Source: Oscillospiraceae bacterium (GTDB lineage Bacteria > Bacillota > Clostridia > UMGS1810). From it: 64,000 bases of DNA. The notes under the pieces were generated by a model. That model saw only the letters and a list, made by a program, of their open reading frames with translations. It did not search any database and had not been told where the DNA came from. Positions 12,698-57,807 of the stretch are shown here, in pieces. The stretch covers positions 62,001 through 126,000 of the forward strand of contig SVJU01000001.1 of NCBI GenBank assembly GCA_015068825.1. Direction: 5' to 3'. The translations under genes and the position numbers were made by a program. Position 1 is the first letter of the stretch. Every line of letters begins with the position of its first letter.

Positions 12698-12727
12698 AAC
12701 CCCGGAATGTAAAAAAATTCCGGGGTT
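12698..12727. terminator. Terminator between converging genes
   Basis: 11-bp stem AACCCCGGAAT (12698-12708) with its exact complement (12717-12727). The T-rich tail is on the minus-strand side (TTTTAATT), so it mainly ends the radC operon; it may also stop the plus-strand transcript. Confidence 0.75.
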
Positions 12728-12733
12728 ACTGTT

Positions 12734-13753
12734 TTATTCAGCAATAAATCCTCTGTCTGCAAGGCTTGTATACGATTTTCCGCTACATATTATATGGTCG
12801 ATTAAAGGTGCACCAATGCTGTTTAAAAGTTTTGAAAGCTGGTTTGAAATGTAAATATCGTTATCAGACGGATGAGCAGAGTTTCCTGTATGATTATGCG
12901 CAACAGCAACAAGATTTGCTTTGTGTTTTATAACTGCTTTTATAACATTTCTTGGATAATATGCAGTTTCGTTTTCTGTTCCTTCGCTTATTGGAACAAC
13001 ATGTTTAAGAGTTCTTTTTGTGTCTAAAATGAGAACAATAAAATTTTCATTTGTCCTTTGAGCAAAATATCTGCAACAAAATTCACCCATAAGGGTTGAA
13101 TTATTGAGCGGCAGATTGTATGAAGGATGAGAACTGATATATGTACATAGCTGATTGCAAAAATTTATTAAACGGGCGCTTTGTTCACCAATACCTTTAA
13201 TTTCTTGCAAATGATGTATATCTGTTTTAAACACATTTTCAAGAGAGCCAAATTCAGATATAAGTTCGTGAGCAATAGGATTTGTATCTTTTTGTTTATT
13301 TAAAAAATACAAAAGCATTTCCAAAACTTCATGTTCTTCAAAGGCATCAAGACCATATCTGTCATAACGCTTCCACATTTTGCTTCTGTGACCTTCATGA
13401 ATGTTTTTTCCATCATCGGACTTTTTTAATTTCTTCTTTGGTTTTGGTGATGACTTTTTTAAACTTTGTTCAACTTTTGGAGGCGCAAAAAAATCGTCAT
13501 TTAAAATATCGTCATAGTTTATATTAAAAGTTATTTCATCTTTTAGCTTTTTTATTGTTTTTGAATCCTGTTTTTCATCCTCAACTGGTTCATCAATAAT
13601 TATCTGAAGTTTATCTGATAAATAATCTTCGTAATTATCGGGAGTATTCATTTTAACGGTTTTGTATCCTCCTCCAAGGCTATCCGGAATAGGAACAAAA
13701 GCAGATTCGCCCGAGTATTTTGTCCCTTCGGGGAATTTCTTTTTTCTTGCCAT
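12734..13753 (-). CDS. radC: RadC-family JAB/MPN-domain protein with long N-terminal extension
   Basis: 339 residues. The C-terminal half is a standard RadC: helix-hairpin-helix region (IKGIGEQSARLI) and a JAB metalloprotease-like motif AHNHTGNSAHPSDND. The first 115 residues are extra compared with the usual 220-230-residue protein and are charged and Lys/Ser/Pro-rich (KKSSPKPKKKLKKS), probably disordered. RadC function is unresolved in general; the old repair role is doubted. It is the last gene of the OLE-oapA-dxs-tlyA operon, 2 bp after tlyA. Confidence 0.93.
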   Translation of the reverse strand: MARKKKFPEGTKYSGESAFVPIPDSLGGGYKTVKMNTPDNYEDYLSDKLQIIIDEPVEDEKQDSKTIKKLKDEITFNINYDDILNDDFFAPPKVEQSLKKSSPKPKKKLKKSDDGKNIHEGHRSKMWKRYDRYGLDAFEEHEVLEMLLYFLNKQKDTNPIAHELISEFGSLENVFKTDIHHLQEIKGIGEQSARLINFCNQLCTYISSHPSYNLPLNNSTLMGEFCCRYFAQRTNENFIVLILDTKRTLKHVVPISEGTENETAYYPRNVIKAVIKHKANLVAVAHNHTGNSAHPSDNDIYISNQLSKLLNSIGAPLIDHIICSGKSYTSLADRGFIAE

Positions 13754-13755
13754 CT

Positions 13756-14568
13756 TTAAAACTCCTTTGAATGAGCATTTTCAACAATTTGTTTTATAAC
13801 TTCATCATTAATTTCAAAAGTGTCAGTTTCTTTTTTTGATAAATACATTAAAAATTCTATATTTCCTTCGGGACCTTTTATTGGCGAAAAATCAAGCCCC
13901 AAAATGCCAAAACCAAATTCTTTTGCTAAATTTAAACAGTTTCTGATTACATTTTCGTGTACCTGTTTGTCTTTTACAACACCTTTTTTGCCAACTTCTT
14001 CTCTTCCCGCTTCAAATTGCGGTTTGATAAGTGCAACAACTTTTCCGTCATCAGACAAAAACGAATATACAACGCCTAAAACAAGCTTAAGAGAAATAAA
14101 CGAAACATCAATAGACGAAAAATCTATTTTGTCTTTTATAAGCTCTAAATCAAGATACCTTACATTTGTTCTTTCAATGTTTACAACTCTTTCGTCTGTT
14201 CTTAATTTCCATGCAAGCTGACCATATCCAACATCAATGCAGTAAACTTTTTTTGCACCGTTTTGAAGCATGCAATCGGTGAAACCGCCTGTTGATGCGC
14301 CAACATCAACACAAATTCTGTCATTTAAATCTATATTAAAAACATCTATTGCTTTTTCAAGTTTAAGACCGCCACGGCTCACATATTTTAAAGTAGAACC
14401 TCTTATTTCAAGCATATCGCCATCCTTTACTTTATCTCCGGCTTTTAATGCTTTTTGCTCATTTACATAAACAATGCCCGCCATAATGTATGCTTTTGCT
14501 TTTTCTCTGCTTTCTGCAAGACCTTTGTTGACAAGCATCACATCAAGTCTTTCACTCAATTTTTTCAC
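13756..14568 (-). CDS. tlyA: TlyA/YqxC family RNA methyltransferase (S4 + FtsJ-like)
   Basis: 270 residues. N-terminal S4 RNA-binding domain (RLDVMLVNKGLAESREKAKAYI) then an FtsJ-type methyltransferase with the SAM motif CVDVGASTGGFTDCML and KPQFEAGREEVGKKGVV. Homologues annotated as haemolysin A are 2'-O-ribose rRNA methyltransferases. The start overlaps the dxs stop by 17 bp, so translation is coupled. The dxs-tlyA order is a common Firmicutes arrangement. Confidence 0.95.
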   Translation of the reverse strand: MKKLSERLDVMLVNKGLAESREKAKAYIMAGIVYVNEQKALKAGDKVKDGDMLEIRGSTLKYVSRGGLKLEKAIDVFNIDLNDRICVDVGASTGGFTDCMLQNGAKKVYCIDVGYGQLAWKLRTDERVVNIERTNVRYLDLELIKDKIDFSSIDVSFISLKLVLGVVYSFLSDDGKVVALIKPQFEAGREEVGKKGVVKDKQVHENVIRNCLNLAKEFGFGILGLDFSPIKGPEGNIEFLMYLSKKETDTFEINDEVIKQIVENAHSKEF

Positions 14569-16399
14569 CTTCCAGTGCTTTTATAATGCCATCTGAAACA
14601 GAATTTTCGTCAAGCTTATATTTTTCAAAAAGTATAGACGGTTTTCCGTGTTCTATAAATTTATCATCCCAGCCAAAACTTAAAACAGGACATTTTATAT
14701 CTGAATTTGTAATAACATAGCTTGCAAAACCGCCGTTTTTAAGGTTATCTTCCAAAAACACCATAAGCTTAACCTTTTTTGAATATTCTTCAATAGTATT
14801 TTTATCAAACGGTTTAACACATCTTACATTTATATGTGCAGCTGATATGTTTTTTTCTTCAAGCTTTTTGATGGCATTTTTTGCAAACTTATTCATTTTA
14901 CCAACTGCAAAAAGTGCAACATCATTACCGTCTTTTATAATTTCAGATTTTTCAAATTCAAAATCGGTATGGTTATCATCAAGTGAAATTGCACCCTTGG
15001 GATAGCGTATTGCAATAGGCCCGTTATGCTCATATATGGCATAATCTATCATCTGCTCAAGCTCTTTTTGCGAGGTGGGAGCTAAAATAGCCATATTTGG
15101 AATATGAGTTAAAAAAGATAAGTCAAAAATTCCCTGATGAGTTTCACCGTCATCACCAACAATGCCTGCTCTGTCAATTAAAAATATAACTTTAAGATTC
15201 TGAAGACAAACATCATGTATAATCTGGTCATAAGCTCTTTGCAAAAATGTTGAATATACGCACACAAACGGAATAAGTCCGCCCTTTGCCATACCGGCAG
15301 CCATTGTAACCATATGTTGTTCGGCAATGCCTACATCAAAAAATCTTTTTGGAAATTTATTTGAAAAATCAACAAGTCCGCACCCTGATGCCATTGCAGC
15401 AGTAAGTGCAACAATTTTATTATTTTCATTAGCCTTTTTTACAAGTATTTTTCCTGCGGCAGCTGAATAATCTATTGTATCTGTATCATCAATTAAAGCT
15501 CTTCTTGATACACCGTGGAATTTTTCAGGATTATTTTCTGCACTTTCATAACCCATTCCTTTTTTTGTAAAGGTGTGTATAAGAACAGGGCCATCAATTT
15601 GTTTGGCACGCTCAAAAACATCGGTAAGGTTTTCTAGGTTGTGACCGTCAATAATTCCAAGATATTTAAAACCTAAATCTTCGAATATAATTCCTGAAAT
15701 AGCGGAGTATTTGAACGCATCTTTAATGGTTGAAACTGCATTTTTTGTTACATTTCCAACCTTTCCCATTTTAGACAAAATATTATTTACATTATCTTTT
15801 GTATTTATATATTTTTTTGTGGTGCGAAGCTTTGATAGATATTCACTCATTCCACCCACATTTTTTTCAATAGACATTTCATTATCGTTAAGTATAACAA
15901 TAAGCTTGTTTTTGCTCGAGCCAGCATCGTTTAAGGCTTCGTAAGCCATACCGCCGCCAAGTGCACCGTCACCTATAAAAGCACACACATTAAAATTATC
16001 ACCCATTAAATCTCTTGCTCTTGCTATACCTAATGCCGCCGAAACAGATGTGCTTGCGTGGCCTGCAACAAATGCATCGCACTTGCTTTCGTTTGGTTTT
16101 GGAAATCCCGAAAGCCCGCCAAACTGACGGATTGTAGAAAACTTATCGTATCTTCCGGTTAAAAGCTTATGCACATAGCTCTGATGTCCTACATCAAAAA
16201 CAATTTTGTCTTTTGGTGAGTCAAAAACAAGGTGATACGCCAAAGTTATTTCTACAACACCTAAATTAGACGCAAGATGACCGCCTGTTTTAAGGACATT
16301 GTCAACCAGCGTCTTTCGTATTTCGTTGCAAAGAGCAGGATATTCTGCTTTATTTAATTTTTTTAAGTCAGAAGGATTTTTTATTTTTTCAAGAAGCAT
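14552..16399 (-). CDS. dxs: 1-deoxy-D-xylulose-5-phosphate synthase
   Basis: 615 residues. First enzyme of the MEP isoprenoid pathway: condenses pyruvate and glyceraldehyde-3-phosphate using thiamine diphosphate. The TPP motif GDGALGGGMAYEALNDAG...NDNEMSI, the N-terminal HLASNLGVVEITLAYH and the C-terminal transketolase signature DVGIAEQHMVTMAAGMA are all present; length is normal. Its ATG follows the oapA stop directly (TAAATG). Position directly after OLE RNA and oapA is the arrangement known for OLE loci. Confidence 0.97.
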   Translation of the reverse strand: MLLEKIKNPSDLKKLNKAEYPALCNEIRKTLVDNVLKTGGHLASNLGVVEITLAYHLVFDSPKDKIVFDVGHQSYVHKLLTGRYDKFSTIRQFGGLSGFPKPNESKCDAFVAGHASTSVSAALGIARARDLMGDNFNVCAFIGDGALGGGMAYEALNDAGSSKNKLIVILNDNEMSIEKNVGGMSEYLSKLRTTKKYINTKDNVNNILSKMGKVGNVTKNAVSTIKDAFKYSAISGIIFEDLGFKYLGIIDGHNLENLTDVFERAKQIDGPVLIHTFTKKGMGYESAENNPEKFHGVSRRALIDDTDTIDYSAAAGKILVKKANENNKIVALTAAMASGCGLVDFSNKFPKRFFDVGIAEQHMVTMAAGMAKGGLIPFVCVYSTFLQRAYDQIIHDVCLQNLKVIFLIDRAGIVGDDGETHQGIFDLSFLTHIPNMAILAPTSQKELEQMIDYAIYEHNGPIAIRYPKGAISLDDNHTDFEFEKSEIIKDGNDVALFAVGKMNKFAKNAIKKLEEKNISAAHINVRCVKPFDKNTIEEYSKKVKLMVFLEDNLKNGGFASYVITNSDIKCPVLSFGWDDKFIEHGKPSILFEKYKLDENSVSDGIIKALEGEKIE

Positions 16400-16984
16400 T
16401 TATCTATCGCTCTTTCTTTTTTTGTCTTTTTTGTTTTTGATACCAAAAGCAAATATTTTTTTAATATAATAAATAGCAATTCCTGCTTTATCAATAATTG
16501 TGTAGCTTTTGTTTATTGCAACACCTTTTCCTGCGGCCTTTCCGCCAACCGTAAGAGCTGCAACAATACCTGCAAGAATAAGGTTTAACATATGCGAGTC
16601 TATTTTTTGGTAGTTTAAAACAACAATTGTAACAATTGCGCCTGCAAGACCGCCCGATACAATACCTACCGTGTCGCCGATTACATCGTTGCAGATGTTT
16701 GAAACCTTTTCGGCGTTTCTTATAAGTGTAATTGATTCTTTTGCACCTTTTATGCCTTTTGCATTCTTTGCGTGAAACGGAGTTTCAGAGGCACTTGTAA
16801 CCGCAATACCTATAATATCAAATAAAATACCAATGAGCACAACTCCTACAAGCACAAAAAAAGCCCACAAAATACTTACATTTTCAATAAGTATGCTTGT
16901 GATTACATTAATTGATATAGATAGTAAAAAGGTGATTATTGTAATTTTAAGAGGCCACAGATTATGGCTTTTTTCTTTCTTCAT
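16400..16984 (-). CDS. oapA: OLE-associated protein A, membrane protein
   Basis: 194 residues with about four membrane segments: two near the N-terminus (about 13-60) and two in the middle to C-terminal part, ending in a very basic tail (KNKKDKKRKSDR). The region FDIIGIAVTSASETPFHA followed by NICNDVIGD resembles DUF21/CNNM-type segments, as described for OapA. OapA brings OLE RNA to the membrane in Bacillus halodurans. The call rests on this profile plus position: it lies 60 bp after a 650-nt structured RNA and directly before dxs. GAGGT ribosome site before the ATG. Confidence 0.86.
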   Translation of the reverse strand: MKKEKSHNLWPLKITIITFLLSISINVITSILIENVSILWAFFVLVGVVLIGILFDIIGIAVTSASETPFHAKNAKGIKGAKESITLIRNAEKVSNICNDVIGDTVGIVSGGLAGAIVTIVVLNYQKIDSHMLNLILAGIVAALTVGGKAAGKGVAINKSYTIIDKAGIAIYYIKKIFAFGIKNKKDKKRKSDR

Positions 16985-17044
16985 TTTAAAAAAATTACCT
17001 CACAGATTTTATCATAAAATGTATAAAACATTAAATTTTAAAAA

Positions 17045-17695
17045 ATAAGTGGTATTATACGAAGTAAAATTTACGGCTTAGGTTCAGTAGGATTTCCCAT
17101 AAGATTACCCCTTCGTCGCCAAAAGGGCAGTTTCCTTTTAAAACCTTATATATTTCGTCACCGAAAATATGACTGAATTGCCACTTAGTCCGCACTGCAA
17201 TCCCTCGTATAACACAGCCTAGGAGATTTCCTCAACAGTCAAATCAACTCTTAGCCTCTTTTGCAAGCACAGTTTCAAACCCTAAAACGATGCATTTATC
17301 TAACGGCCGGTTAGACAAAGCATCTGACGGTTATTCGCATATGTTCACTCAAGGCAGGCTACTCTGCTCACAGCGTATTGCTACCTACACCGCAAAACAG
17401 GTTACATCCTAAACCGTAACCAAAAAACCTTTAGCTAAGGAACCTGAGTGTTTCAAAGGCAAAATCACCCCTGATGAGTCAGGCCCTTTTCTAATTGTCA
17501 CGAGTTTAGGTCTCCACGGAAAAAGGGTCAACGCCCGCATGCCATTGCGGATCGCCCTTAATCCTTAACTCCCAGCATCTGCCCCAGACTGGGCGTAAGA
17601 AGCAAACACAAGGAACTTCATCGATATGCCCTTTAGTGGATTTTTAGGCCCACCTTACAAGCTGACCGATCTGACTAGGATACTGCACCACTTAT
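17045..17695 (-). ncRNA. ole: OLE RNA (ornate large extremophilic RNA)
   Basis: About 650 nt without a significant ORF, visibly richer in GC and structured elements than neighbouring spacers. The predicted ends pair: ATAAGTGGT at the 5' end (17687-17695) with ACCACTTAT at the 3' end (17045-17053), the latter followed by T-rich sequence. Length, the closing helix, a dedicated promoter, and position before oapA and dxs together match the OLE locus described in Bacillus halodurans and other Firmicutes. RNase P and tmRNA were considered: the GAGGAAAGUCC and ACAGAA signatures and a tRNA-like acceptor are absent. Primary-sequence consensus could not be checked here. Confidence 0.87.
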
Positions 17696-17700
17696 AATGT

Positions 17701-17729
17701 ATTTTAACACATTTTTTCAAAAAAGTAAA
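17701..17729 (-). promoter_or_regulatory. Sigma-A promoter of OLE RNA operon
   Basis: Minus strand TTTACT (17724-17729), 17-bp spacer, TAAAAT (17701-17706). The start near 17694 coincides with the 5' arm of the closing helix. Confidence 0.8.
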
Positions 17730-25142: not shown

Positions 25143-28100
25143 CTAATATTCAAATTTGCCCTGATATACCATAACGGCATTTCCTGTCAATATTACACCA
25201 TTGTCAGAATAGTTTACAATGAGGTCGCCACCGGCAAGCTTTACAGTTATATCGGTGTTTTTATCGCAAAATCCGTTCTCAACTGCGGCAATAACCGCTG
25301 CACATGCACCGGTTCCGCAAGACAGAGTTTCGCCACTTCCGCGTTCCCACACACGCATTCTTATTGTTGTTTTATTAACAACACGAACAAATTCGGTGTT
25401 TATTCTTTCAGGGAAAATGGGTGCATATTCAAAATGTGGACCAACTTTTTCAATGTCTATTGAGTCAATAGAATCGCAAAATACCACACAATGAGGATTC
25501 CCAACTGATACACATGTTACATTGTATTCTTTGTTATCAATTTTAACAGGTGCATTTATCATTGTTTCTTTGTTATACATTGCAGGAATGTTATTAACAT
25601 TAAGCTCGGCTTTTCCCATGTTAACCGATACAGAATTTACCTTTCCGTCACGGATATAAAGCTTTAGTGTATAAACTTTTCCGCCTGATTCTATACTTAA
25701 ATTTTCGCTCCTTACATAATCGTTGTCATAAAGATATTTTGCAACACATCTTATATTGTTACCTGCCATTTTACCTTCGCTTCCGTCTTTATTGAAAGAA
25801 CGCATTTTTGCATCTGCAATGCTTGATTTTTCAATCAGCACAACACCATCTGCGCCAATTGAGTAATGCGGTGTGCAAAGATTCACACAAAGTGACTCAG
25901 GACAGGTAATTGTGTTATCAAAATTTTCAATGAAAATATAATCATTTCCGCAGGAGTGCATTTTGGTAAAATTAATTTTCTGACGCCACATACGCATATC
26001 ATTAATATCAACAAGCTCGGTGTTATGGAAATTAAAGTTTCCTTTAATTATTTTTGCAAGTGCATTTGCGGTATCGAGTGATGTAAAGCATGGGATTGAA
26101 AGCAGCATTGCTTTTCTGTGAAGTGATATAAAATCGCCCATTGTTGCATCTTTAACTGCACCTGTGTAAATAATGTAATTAATTTTTCCGCTTTCCATAA
26201 GGTTTTTGATTTCATCACTTTCGGTTGTATTTTTAACAGATGTAACCTTAATGCCAAGCGATGAAATTGCGTTTGCGGTTCCACTTGTGGCATAAAGAGT
26301 AATACCTAAATCGTAAAACTCTTTTGCAAGTGAAATAACCTCCTGATAATCATTTTCTTCAACGCTTATAAGAACACCGGGTTTGCTGTTTGAATTTTTG
26401 TCAAATATTTTATATCCGGCACTGCAAAGACCTTTGAATAAAGCCTCTTCCATTGTTTTTCCAATGCCAAGAACCTCGCCTGTTGATTTCATTTCAGGTC
26501 CTAAAATTGCATTTGCATCGTTGAGCTTTTCAAAAGAGAATACAGGCACCTTTACCGCATAGTAGGGAGGAGTTCTGTAAAGCAAAGTTCCGTAGCCTAA
26601 AGCATCAAGCTTTTCGCCAAGCATAACCTTTGCAGCAAGGTCTACCATAGGAACATTTGTAACCTTGCTTATGTAAGGAATTGTTCTTGATGCTCTCGGA
26701 TTAACCTCAATTACATAAAGCTCGTTTTCGTATATTAAATACTGAATATTAACAAGTCCCTTTGTGCCAAGTGCCAATGCAAGCTTTTTGCTGCAATTTG
26801 TGATTTTGTCTAAAAACTTATCGCTTAAATTATATGGGGGATAAACAGCAATTGAGTCGCCGCTGTGAACGCCTGCACGCTCGATATGCTCCATAATTCC
26901 CGGAATTAAAACATTTTCACCATCACTTATTACATCAACTTCAAGCTCACAACCGGGCATATATTTATCTACAAGAACGGGGTTATCAATACCGCCTGAT
27001 AAAATGGTATCCATATATTTTTTAGTGGTTTCGTCATTTCTTGAAATTGTCATATTTTGACCACCTATAACATAAGATGGCCTTAAAAGTACGGGATATC
27101 CAAGCTTGTTTGCCGCATCAAGAGCTTCTTCTTTTGTAGAAACACCAACACCCTTTGGTCTTTTTATTCCAAAGCTTTCAAGAAGATTGTCAAATTTATA
27201 TCTGTCTTCGGCAAGGTCAATGCCCTCCCACGACGTACCAAGAATTTTTATGTTGTTATCGTGCAAAAATTTTGTAAGCTTTATAGCAGTCTGACCGCCA
27301 AATGCTACAACAACACCAATAGGTTTTTCTATGTTTATTATACTTAATACATCTTCACTGTTAAGCGGTTCAAAATAAAGTCTGTCAGCTGTGTCATAGT
27401 CGGTTGATACAGTTTCGGGATTGTTGTTTACAATTACAACATCATAACCCATTTTCTGAAGTGTCCATACACAGTGAACGGAGCTATAGTCAAATTCAAT
27501 TCCCTGACCTATTCTTATAGGGCCTGAACCTAAAACCATAATAACATCTTTGCCGCTTCTTTGGTAATTTTTAGAATCGCAAGTGCCATAGTGAGAATAA
27601 AAATAAGGAGTTTTATCTCCAAAAATGCCTTTGCAGGTATCAACTATTTTATAAGATAATTCCTTTGAAAATGTGCATTTTTGTCCGCTTATTCTTTCTA
27701 TTGCATTATCTGTATAGCCAAATTTCTTTCCTTTTTCGTATAAAGCTTTTGTCAGAGTGTTATTTTCAATTTCTTTTTCATAATCGGCAAGATTTTTAAG
27801 TTTTTCCAAAAAGTATTTTGTGATTTTTGTAATAGAATGAATTTTATCTAAGCTTACACCTTTTTTTATTGCCTCGAATATTGTAAATATTCTTCGGTCA
27901 TTCATTTCATAAAGTCGTTCTTCAACATCTATGTCTGAAAGTGGAGCTGCATTTAGTGTGTCAAGCGAAATTTCCGCTCCTCTTACAGCCTTCATAAGTG
28001 CCATCTCAAATGTTGGTGCAATAGCCATAACTTCGCCTGTTGCTTTCATTTGAGTGCCAAGTTTTCTGGATGAGGTTGCAAATTTGTCAAACGGCCATTT

Positions 28101-29174
28101 TGGAAATTTAACAACAATATATTTGCAGTCAGGCTCAAAAGCTTTTGCACTTTCGAGTGTTTTTTCGTTTTTAATTTCGTCAAGGGTATATCCTAAAGAT
28201 AGTTTTGCAGTAACCTTTGCAATAGGGTATCCTGTTGCTTTTGAGGCAAGTGCAGATGAGCGCGAAACCCTTGGGTTAACTTCTATTACCGCATATTCGC
28301 TTGTTTGGGGATTTAAAGCGAACTGAACATTGCAGCCACCAATGATTCCAATATCCGAAACAATGTCAAGTGCAGCTTTTTTCAGCATATTAAACTCTTT
28401 GTCTGATAAAGTAAGAGTTGGTGCAACAACGATAGAGTCGCCTGTATGAATACCTACAGGGTCAAAGTTTTCCATAGGGCATACAGCAACAACATTGCCG
28501 GTTTTATCTCTCATTGTTTCAAATTCAATTTCTTTCCAGCCCGAAATGCATTTTTCAATCAAAACCTGATTGATGGGAGATAAATCAAGACCATTTCTGG
28601 CAATTTCTTTAAGCTCATTTTCGTTGTTTGCAATGCCGCCTCCCGAGCCGCCCAAAGTAAAGGCAGGTCTTACTATTACGGGATACCCGATTTTATTTGC
28701 AATGTCGACAGATTCTTTAAGTGTGTTTGCAATGTCAGACGGAACAATTCCATGTCCGTTTTTCTCCATCGCCTCTTTAAAAAGTTCTCTGTCCTCGGCG
28801 GTGTTGATTGTATTTACATCAGAGCCTAAAAGCCTTACATTATATTTTTCAAGTGTGCCGTCTTTTGCAAGCTGCATTGCTATTGTAAGACCGGTCTGAC
28901 CGCCAAGTGATGCCAAAAGAGAGTCTGGTTTTTCTTTTTCTATAATTCTTCTTACTGTCTGGGCATTTAACGGTTCTAAATAAATTTCGTCAGCAAGGTT
29001 TTTGTCTGTCATAATTGTTGCAGGGTTTGAGTTTACAAGAACAACATTAATACCCTCGTCTTTTAAAACACGGCATGCCTGTGTTCCGGCATAGTCAAAT
29101 TCTGCCGCCTGACCTATTACAATAGGACCTGAACCTATAACAAGAACTTTTTTTATAGAATTATCCTTTGGCAT
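25143..29174 (-). CDS. Carbamoyl-phosphate synthase large subunit fused to a diaminopimelate epimerase domain
   Basis: 1343 residues in one uninterrupted frame. Residues 1 to about 1064 are a full CarB: SGPIVIGQAAEFDYAGTQACR at the start, a second ATP-grasp half beginning GSGPIRIGQGIEFDYSSVH near 550, and an MGS-like end domain. From about 1066 a complete-length DapF follows (NFTKMHSCGNDYIF, GADGVVLIEKS, SGETLSCGTGACAAV). The second catalytic Cys is present (C1286), but the first lies in KMAGNNIRC, with Ala 1137 where DapF usually has MCGNG. No ribosome site exists at the junction. Last gene of the arg operon, with a good GGAGG site. Whether the DapF part is active, altered or regulatory is open. 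Confidence 0.93.
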   Translation of the reverse strand: MPKDNSIKKVLVIGSGPIVIGQAAEFDYAGTQACRVLKDEGINVVLVNSNPATIMTDKNLADEIYLEPLNAQTVRRIIEKEKPDSLLASLGGQTGLTIAMQLAKDGTLEKYNVRLLGSDVNTINTAEDRELFKEAMEKNGHGIVPSDIANTLKESVDIANKIGYPVIVRPAFTLGGSGGGIANNENELKEIARNGLDLSPINQVLIEKCISGWKEIEFETMRDKTGNVVAVCPMENFDPVGIHTGDSIVVAPTLTLSDKEFNMLKKAALDIVSDIGIIGGCNVQFALNPQTSEYAVIEVNPRVSRSSALASKATGYPIAKVTAKLSLGYTLDEIKNEKTLESAKAFEPDCKYIVVKFPKWPFDKFATSSRKLGTQMKATGEVMAIAPTFEMALMKAVRGAEISLDTLNAAPLSDIDVEERLYEMNDRRIFTIFEAIKKGVSLDKIHSITKITKYFLEKLKNLADYEKEIENNTLTKALYEKGKKFGYTDNAIERISGQKCTFSKELSYKIVDTCKGIFGDKTPYFYSHYGTCDSKNYQRSGKDVIMVLGSGPIRIGQGIEFDYSSVHCVWTLQKMGYDVVIVNNNPETVSTDYDTADRLYFEPLNSEDVLSIINIEKPIGVVVAFGGQTAIKLTKFLHDNNIKILGTSWEGIDLAEDRYKFDNLLESFGIKRPKGVGVSTKEEALDAANKLGYPVLLRPSYVIGGQNMTISRNDETTKKYMDTILSGGIDNPVLVDKYMPGCELEVDVISDGENVLIPGIMEHIERAGVHSGDSIAVYPPYNLSDKFLDKITNCSKKLALALGTKGLVNIQYLIYENELYVIEVNPRASRTIPYISKVTNVPMVDLAAKVMLGEKLDALGYGTLLYRTPPYYAVKVPVFSFEKLNDANAILGPEMKSTGEVLGIGKTMEEALFKGLCSAGYKIFDKNSNSKPGVLISVEENDYQEVISLAKEFYDLGITLYATSGTANAISSLGIKVTSVKNTTESDEIKNLMESGKINYIIYTGAVKDATMGDFISLHRKAMLLSIPCFTSLDTANALAKIIKGNFNFHNTELVDINDMRMWRQKINFTKMHSCGNDYIFIENFDNTITCPESLCVNLCTPHYSIGADGVVLIEKSSIADAKMRSFNKDGSEGKMAGNNIRCVAKYLYDNDYVRSENLSIESGGKVYTLKLYIRDGKVNSVSVNMGKAELNVNNIPAMYNKETMINAPVKIDNKEYNVTCVSVGNPHCVVFCDSIDSIDIEKVGPHFEYAPIFPERINTEFVRVVNKTTIRMRVWERGSGETLSCGTGACAAVIAAVENGFCDKNTDITVKLAGGDLIVNYSDNGVILTGNAVMVYQGKFEY

Positions 29175-55276: not shown

Positions 55277-55337
55277 ACTATGCGTATGGGCAAATTTATT
55301 TGTTAAGGAGGATAGAAAAACAAAAATCAGATATTAA

Positions 55338-55540
55338 GCGCCAGGACCTTTTATTTTAAAGGTTGACGAGGATAAGGCTTATCGAAATTTTCGGCGGATG
55401 GTCTTACGCTTTGCACGAGCGATAGCAAATTTGAAAAACGCAGAGTAATTTGCGAACAAACAAATTTGCGGTGTTAAAAACCTTTCATATTTGCCCGATG
55501 AAATGTTTGTTTCGCAAAATCGGGATTTTTATGCCCAGAA
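55338..55540 (+). ncRNA. glmS ribozyme
   Basis: Self-cleaving ribozyme activated by glucosamine-6-phosphate. The 5' signature AGCGCC (cleavage expected between A55337 and G55338), the P2 stem CCTTT..AAAGG, TTGACGAGG, GGCTTATCGAAATTTTCGGCGGATG and a P4-like stem (CCCGAT..ATCGGG) all match the class. Lies in the leader of glmS, giving feedback control of amino-sugar synthesis. The 3' limit is approximate. Confidence 0.93.
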
Positions 55541-57579: not shown

Positions 57580-57604
57580 ACTTTTGTTAATACCTTTAGA
57601 AAGG

Positions 57605-57782
57605 TATTAGATAGAGGTGCATTAGTTATAAGTAGCATTTGCTTTTTCAGGAAATAAAGCATTTTGCAAAAGGAACTTAATGCCGAAGTAAAAGTTTCTG
57701 CTTTCCTGGTGCAAAGCTTTTGCTGGGACGATACAGAATATGTATCGTACTGTCACTGTTTGATGTGGAGCGCTATCTTATA
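57605..57782 (+). promoter_or_regulatory. Lysine riboswitch (L box)
   Basis: L-box landmarks in order: GATAGAGGTGC at 57610 (P1 5' side), AGGAAATAAAGC, GCCGAAG near 57680, TGCTGGGACGATAC, ACTGTCACTG, and TGTGGAGCGCTATC, where CTATC (57773-57777) closes P1 with GATAG (57610-57614). Lysine binding lowers expression of the downstream transporter. Confidence 0.93.
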
Positions 57783-57807
57783 ATTTTTAATATTATCTTA
57801 AAATATT

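Follow-up and report, generated by a model that had tools for sequence, protein, structure and literature searches.

The window analysed here, 64,000 nucleotides of contig SVJU01000001.1 from an Oscillospiraceae bacterium, harbours an OLE RNA (17033-17707) followed on the same reverse strand by four closely packed genes. The first is oapA (16400-16984), which encodes OapA, a predicted membrane protein of 194 aa with a CNDVIGD motif, and begins 49 nt past the end of the Rfam OLE match. It is followed by dxs (14552-16399), encoding 1-deoxy-D-xylulose-5-phosphate synthase (TIGR00204, 734.7 bits, cut-off 466), by the gene for a tlyA-family rRNA methyltransferase (13756-14568; TIGR00478, 274.9 bits, cut-off 185.8) and by a radC-family gene whose product is extended at the N terminus (12734-13753; PF04002, E=5.5e-29). 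The last base of oapA adjoins the dxs start codon, with a junction of 0 nt, tlyA and dxs overlap by 17 nt, and 2 nt separate tlyA from radC. The operon ends at a bidirectional stem-loop terminator on the same strand (12698-12727), with 11 pairs, six of them G-C, and a T-rich tail.

Promoter and gene neighbourhood

A likely promoter was located at 17701-17729 on the reverse strand, composed of TTTACT (17729-17724), a 17-nt spacer and TAAAAT (17706-17701), the latter preceded by TG. The original prediction had given the RNA a promoter of its own. A pattern scan alone did not bear this out, as the number of sites found was at chance level (24 against 23.5 expected). However, a -10-like hexamer recurs at a similar distance 5' of OLE in most of the relatives inspected, and OLE therefore most likely has its own promoter.

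The gene order was compared with 80 related loci outside the window's order, among which 63 have dxs downstream and 61 have tlyA. The presence of tlyA and radC in the same operon had been put forward as a feature of this lineage; both genes are present and tightly spaced, but OLE loci commonly have tlyA behind dxs, which leaves radC as the one unusual member. radC was found in none of the 80 loci, although four of the contigs are too short to tell and a divergent radC could have escaped detection. In the window's order, radC follows tlyA in all four other testable OLE loci (G008, G010, G011 and G012). The dxs-tlyA arrangement is thus the ordinary setting of OLE and radC is a trait of the window's order. 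Upstream of OLE in G012 are genes which, by reading of their sequences, are ispA-like and xseA-like; in the window a divergent gene stands in place of this pair, and the G012 arrangement would be the older one. A link between OLE and isoprenoid genes had also been anticipated, and dxs does lie beside oapA, but as news the link does not hold, the isoprenoid gene neighbourhood of OLE having already been described (PMC12265935).

Identity and structure of the OLE RNA

The structured RNA of ~650 nt was originally taken to be OLE, and a search with the Rfam model (cmscan) confirmed this. RF01071 matched window positions 17707-17033 on the reverse strand with 499.3 bits (E=1.7e-143), against a curated cut-off of 50 bits, and the match covered model positions 1-616 of 616, the full length. 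The predicted mature RNA, ~17694-17046, falls within the match. In the 2.0-Mb draft genome the same search detected a single copy, and it gave no match in 14 well-known control genomes. The TANB77 and RF39 clades are reported to have shortened OLE variants (PMC11332333); the size and the intact stems of the window copy identify it as full-length OLE rather than a variant of this type. These data show that the RNA is an authentic OLE RNA of the known bacterial type, complete in length, in an uncultured clostridial host.

To assess the structure, 12 OLE copies were aligned, six from the window's order and six from other genomes, and RNAalifold predicted 187 pairs. Double-sided compensatory changes were present in 101 of these, a pair being counted when at least one sequence had both sides changed with pairing kept. 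The helices, which were named from published descriptions as were the loops, were also scored individually against slid and shuffled controls. The original prediction that the ends of the RNA are paired was upheld: 17694-17687 pair with 17053-17046 to form the closing stem P1, in which 93.8% of pairs were standard and six of eight covaried with compensatory changes in relatives, while slid controls gave 26-71%. P3 (17659-17673 with 17236-17251), the helix proposed to span the membrane and for which ~14 pairs are said to be required (PMC12265935), gave 90.4% standard pairs with 11 of 14 covarying, against 34-44% for slid controls. P7, P12, P12.2 and P13 behaved like P1 and P3 in the same test. 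The closing stem and P3 are both unpaired in the Rfam match, and their recovery therefore supports the published OLE model independently of Rfam.

The P4, P5.1 and P6.1 loops were near-identical in sequence across the 12 copies and GGCC is present in the P9 loop of the window copy; these four loops, as named in the literature, are the reported contacts of the RNA dimer. A perfect CCUCCU anti-Shine-Dalgarno match is absent from P6 of the window RNA, where the sequence is CCCUUUUUCC. Such a match has been described for P6 of Halalkalibacterium halodurans OLE, and published mutants that lack it still bind bS21 (PMC12054373).

The P7 arm is enlarged (17404-17509, ~106 nt, from the alignment and the helix test). 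It measured ~106-116 nt in four OLE copies of the order, against 60-69 nt in copies from elsewhere; the length obtained for G001 is unreliable, as the search pattern ended prematurely. One 845-nt copy from the order (G008:C27:123875-124719, L086) has a P7 arm of ~283 nt, far above the other aligned copies. The window copy also lacks a small hairpin of the Rfam consensus (approximately model positions 424-435), which is absent from all six OLE copies of the order. A missing hairpin and an enlarged arm might be taken as signs of a decayed copy that no longer functions, but this is extremely unlikely: standard pairing is kept in 144 of the 155 mapped Rfam pairs, the highly conserved segments are intact by the 12-copy alignment, and the other OLE copies of the order share both peculiarities while their oapA genes are likewise intact.

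OLE heads the transcript and precedes oapA and dxs at short distance. This position would also fit a mainly cis-acting leader that controls these genes in the manner of a riboswitch, rather than a free RNA in a membrane particle. Such a role is very improbable for the window RNA, which is a full OLE with a stem closing its own two ends, and a scan found no terminator hairpin or ribosome-site switch between OLE and oapA. In one related locus (L025) ~1.1 kb separates OLE from the downstream oapA, more than simple leader control would allow, and in H. halodurans OLE acts as a membrane ribonucleoprotein (PMC12265935).

The nearest characterised counterparts are the OLE RNAs of H. halodurans and of the Clostridium species studied by cryo-EM (RF01071). 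The window copy shares with these the full-length model match, the paired ends, the P3 stem, the conserved P4, P5.1, P6.1 and P9 loops, and oapA directly downstream followed by dxs and tlyA. It differs in the larger P7 arm, the loss of one small consensus hairpin, radC at the operon end and the lack of a perfect CCUCCU in P6.

OapA and other partner proteins

The oapA product gave no significant match to Pfam or NCBIfam models, including the CNNM model PF01595, and a profile search against PDB sequences also gave no match. The relation of this protein to CNNM proteins was visible only by fold comparison. An AlphaFold model (pLDDT 89.2) had as its best fold matches the transmembrane domains of archaeal CorB (Z 13.2, 7m1t) and bacterial CorC (Z 11.4), with the next unrelated fold at 8.0; the CNNM-like part corresponds to residues 37-175 in the comparison with 7m1t. 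Foldseek ranked the same CorB and CorC structures first (E near 0.002). The protein is therefore predicted from the model to be a helical membrane protein with a CNNM-like fold. Weak matches to the CNNM Pfam model were seen in 19 of 40 aligned OapA proteins.

Eighty OapA relatives were retrieved from other genomes, all of which (80/80) carry DVIGD, and CNDVIGD was invariant in the 40 aligned sequences. The DxxxD that it contains has been described as distinctive of OapA (PMC11332333). The proposal of an OapA-like membrane protein before dxs was well founded, as its motif, gene order, relatives and predicted fold all identify the protein beside OLE as OapA. Neither of the two outcomes named with the original prediction as refuting it, no OLE model match and no OapA homology, was thus obtained. 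It resembles known OapA in its size (~21 kDa), its helical membrane character, DxxxD, a gene beside ole and the predicted CNNM-like fold, and no feature was found that distinguishes it. In its fold the protein reproduces the kinship with MpfA already published for OapA. Unlike the MpfA, CorC and CorB Mg2+ transporters (CNNM, PF01595), with which it shares this fold, the 194-aa protein has no room for the CBS and CorC_HlyC domains, which it lacks, and it carries DxxxD.

A search of the genome for oapB and oapC had been suggested with the original prediction, and was successful for the former. The KOW Pfam model produced two strong matches, which were apparently L24 and NusG, and OapB was therefore sought through its gene neighbourhood. 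It is encoded between map and infA (L108:5245-5535, reverse strand), with E=5.4e-11 to the solved OapB structure 7k9b. bS21 is also encoded in the genome. The only L7Ae protein found was of the YlxQ type, with no YbxF/OapC. YbxF adjoins rpsL, a universal gene, in G001 and G010, and the rpsL region is missing from the window's assembly, so this result is not informative on a real absence of OapC. No CNNM/MpfA-type transporter was found in the genome.

OLE and MpfA among related genomes

Few bacterial RNAs of unsolved biochemical role are as large as OLE, and one more copy adds little alone. The expected extension of the distribution of OLE is not supported as news: OLE was detected in 69 of 147 sampled genomes of the class, and a GTDB-wide survey reported 2,822 copies across Bacillota (PMC11332333). 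The new details are modest, and comprise the order-wide radC neighbour, the enlarged P7 and the lack of any overlap between OLE/OapA and MpfA in close relatives.

The window's order consists of 16 genomes in one family, and order-level and family-level searches return the same 16. OLE and OapA were found in the same six, CNNM proteins in seven of the ten OLE-free genomes, and OLE/OapA together with MpfA in none of the 16. The three CNNM proteins checked all had the full MpfA domain order of CNNM, CBS and CorC_HlyC. Fisher's test gave p=0.011 for the split between OLE and CNNM, a value to be read with the genera not being independent samples. The three genomes with neither OLE nor CNNM are 71-79% complete. 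MpfA was looked for at the dxs-tlyA-radC site of OLE-free relatives, but the five MpfA contigs retrieved had no oapA, tlyA or radC, and two of the five had only a distant dxs-like match (~37% identity).

An anticorrelation of OLE and MpfA has been published by Fernando and Breaker (PMC11332333). In the class-level sample of 147 genomes, by our own count of strong matches, a CNNM match was present in 38 of the 69 OLE genomes against 75 of the 78 OLE-free genomes (p=1.5e-9), which agrees with the published anticorrelation, with many exceptions. The order is useful in this respect, as its closely related genera carry either OLE and OapA or MpfA, and no tested genome combines them. The proposed substitution of a Mg2+ transporter for an RNA-protein machine is thus testable among near relatives. 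It is unlikely, though conceivable, that within this single-family order OLE/OapA and MpfA genuinely replace each other in function, switching from genus to genus, and that RadC has become a functional partner of the OLE operon in this lineage.

Taken with the operon layout, these data point, with a probability of roughly 0.93, to a locus in which a full-length OLE RNA and OapA, most likely under one promoter with dxs, tlyA and radC, would form a membrane stress particle by analogy with characterised systems. Published work on H. halodurans and the cryo-EM structures describes a membrane particle made of two OLE RNAs and an OapA dimer (PMC12265935, PMC9723947), which helps the cell under four kinds of stress, from Mg2+, cold, alcohol and carbon. 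By the same arrangement, two copies of the window RNA would dimerise through the conserved loops, an OapA dimer would be placed alongside their P3 helices within the membrane, and OapB would dock on the P12.2/P13 region. The RNA would presumably be abundant, and the particle may help the cell to withstand these four stresses, and could do at least part of the job of the MpfA/CorC Mg2+ transporter seen in OLE-free relatives. Any connection with isoprenoid synthesis in this organism is likewise inferred.

In two genomes of Anaerofustis stercorihominis (L017:8001-8555 and L022:7989-8543), OapA with DVIGD is encoded directly before tlyA and nadK-, argR- and recN-like genes. No OLE was found in the 16.5 kb fetched around either gene, and relaxing the threshold in L017 did not change this. 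The RNA may be encoded elsewhere in these genomes or may have been lost; OapA without OLE, if true, would be one of the rare departures from the published rule.

Three further features of the window were recorded. A glmS ribozyme before a glmS-like gene (55326-55479) and a lysine riboswitch before the gene for an NhaC-type Na+/H+ antiporter (57604-57783), both on the forward strand, look ordinary. On the reverse strand, a single 1343-aa frame (25143-29174) joins the large chain of carbamoyl-phosphate synthase to diaminopimelate epimerase, and looks from its sequence like an unusual CarB-DapF fusion.
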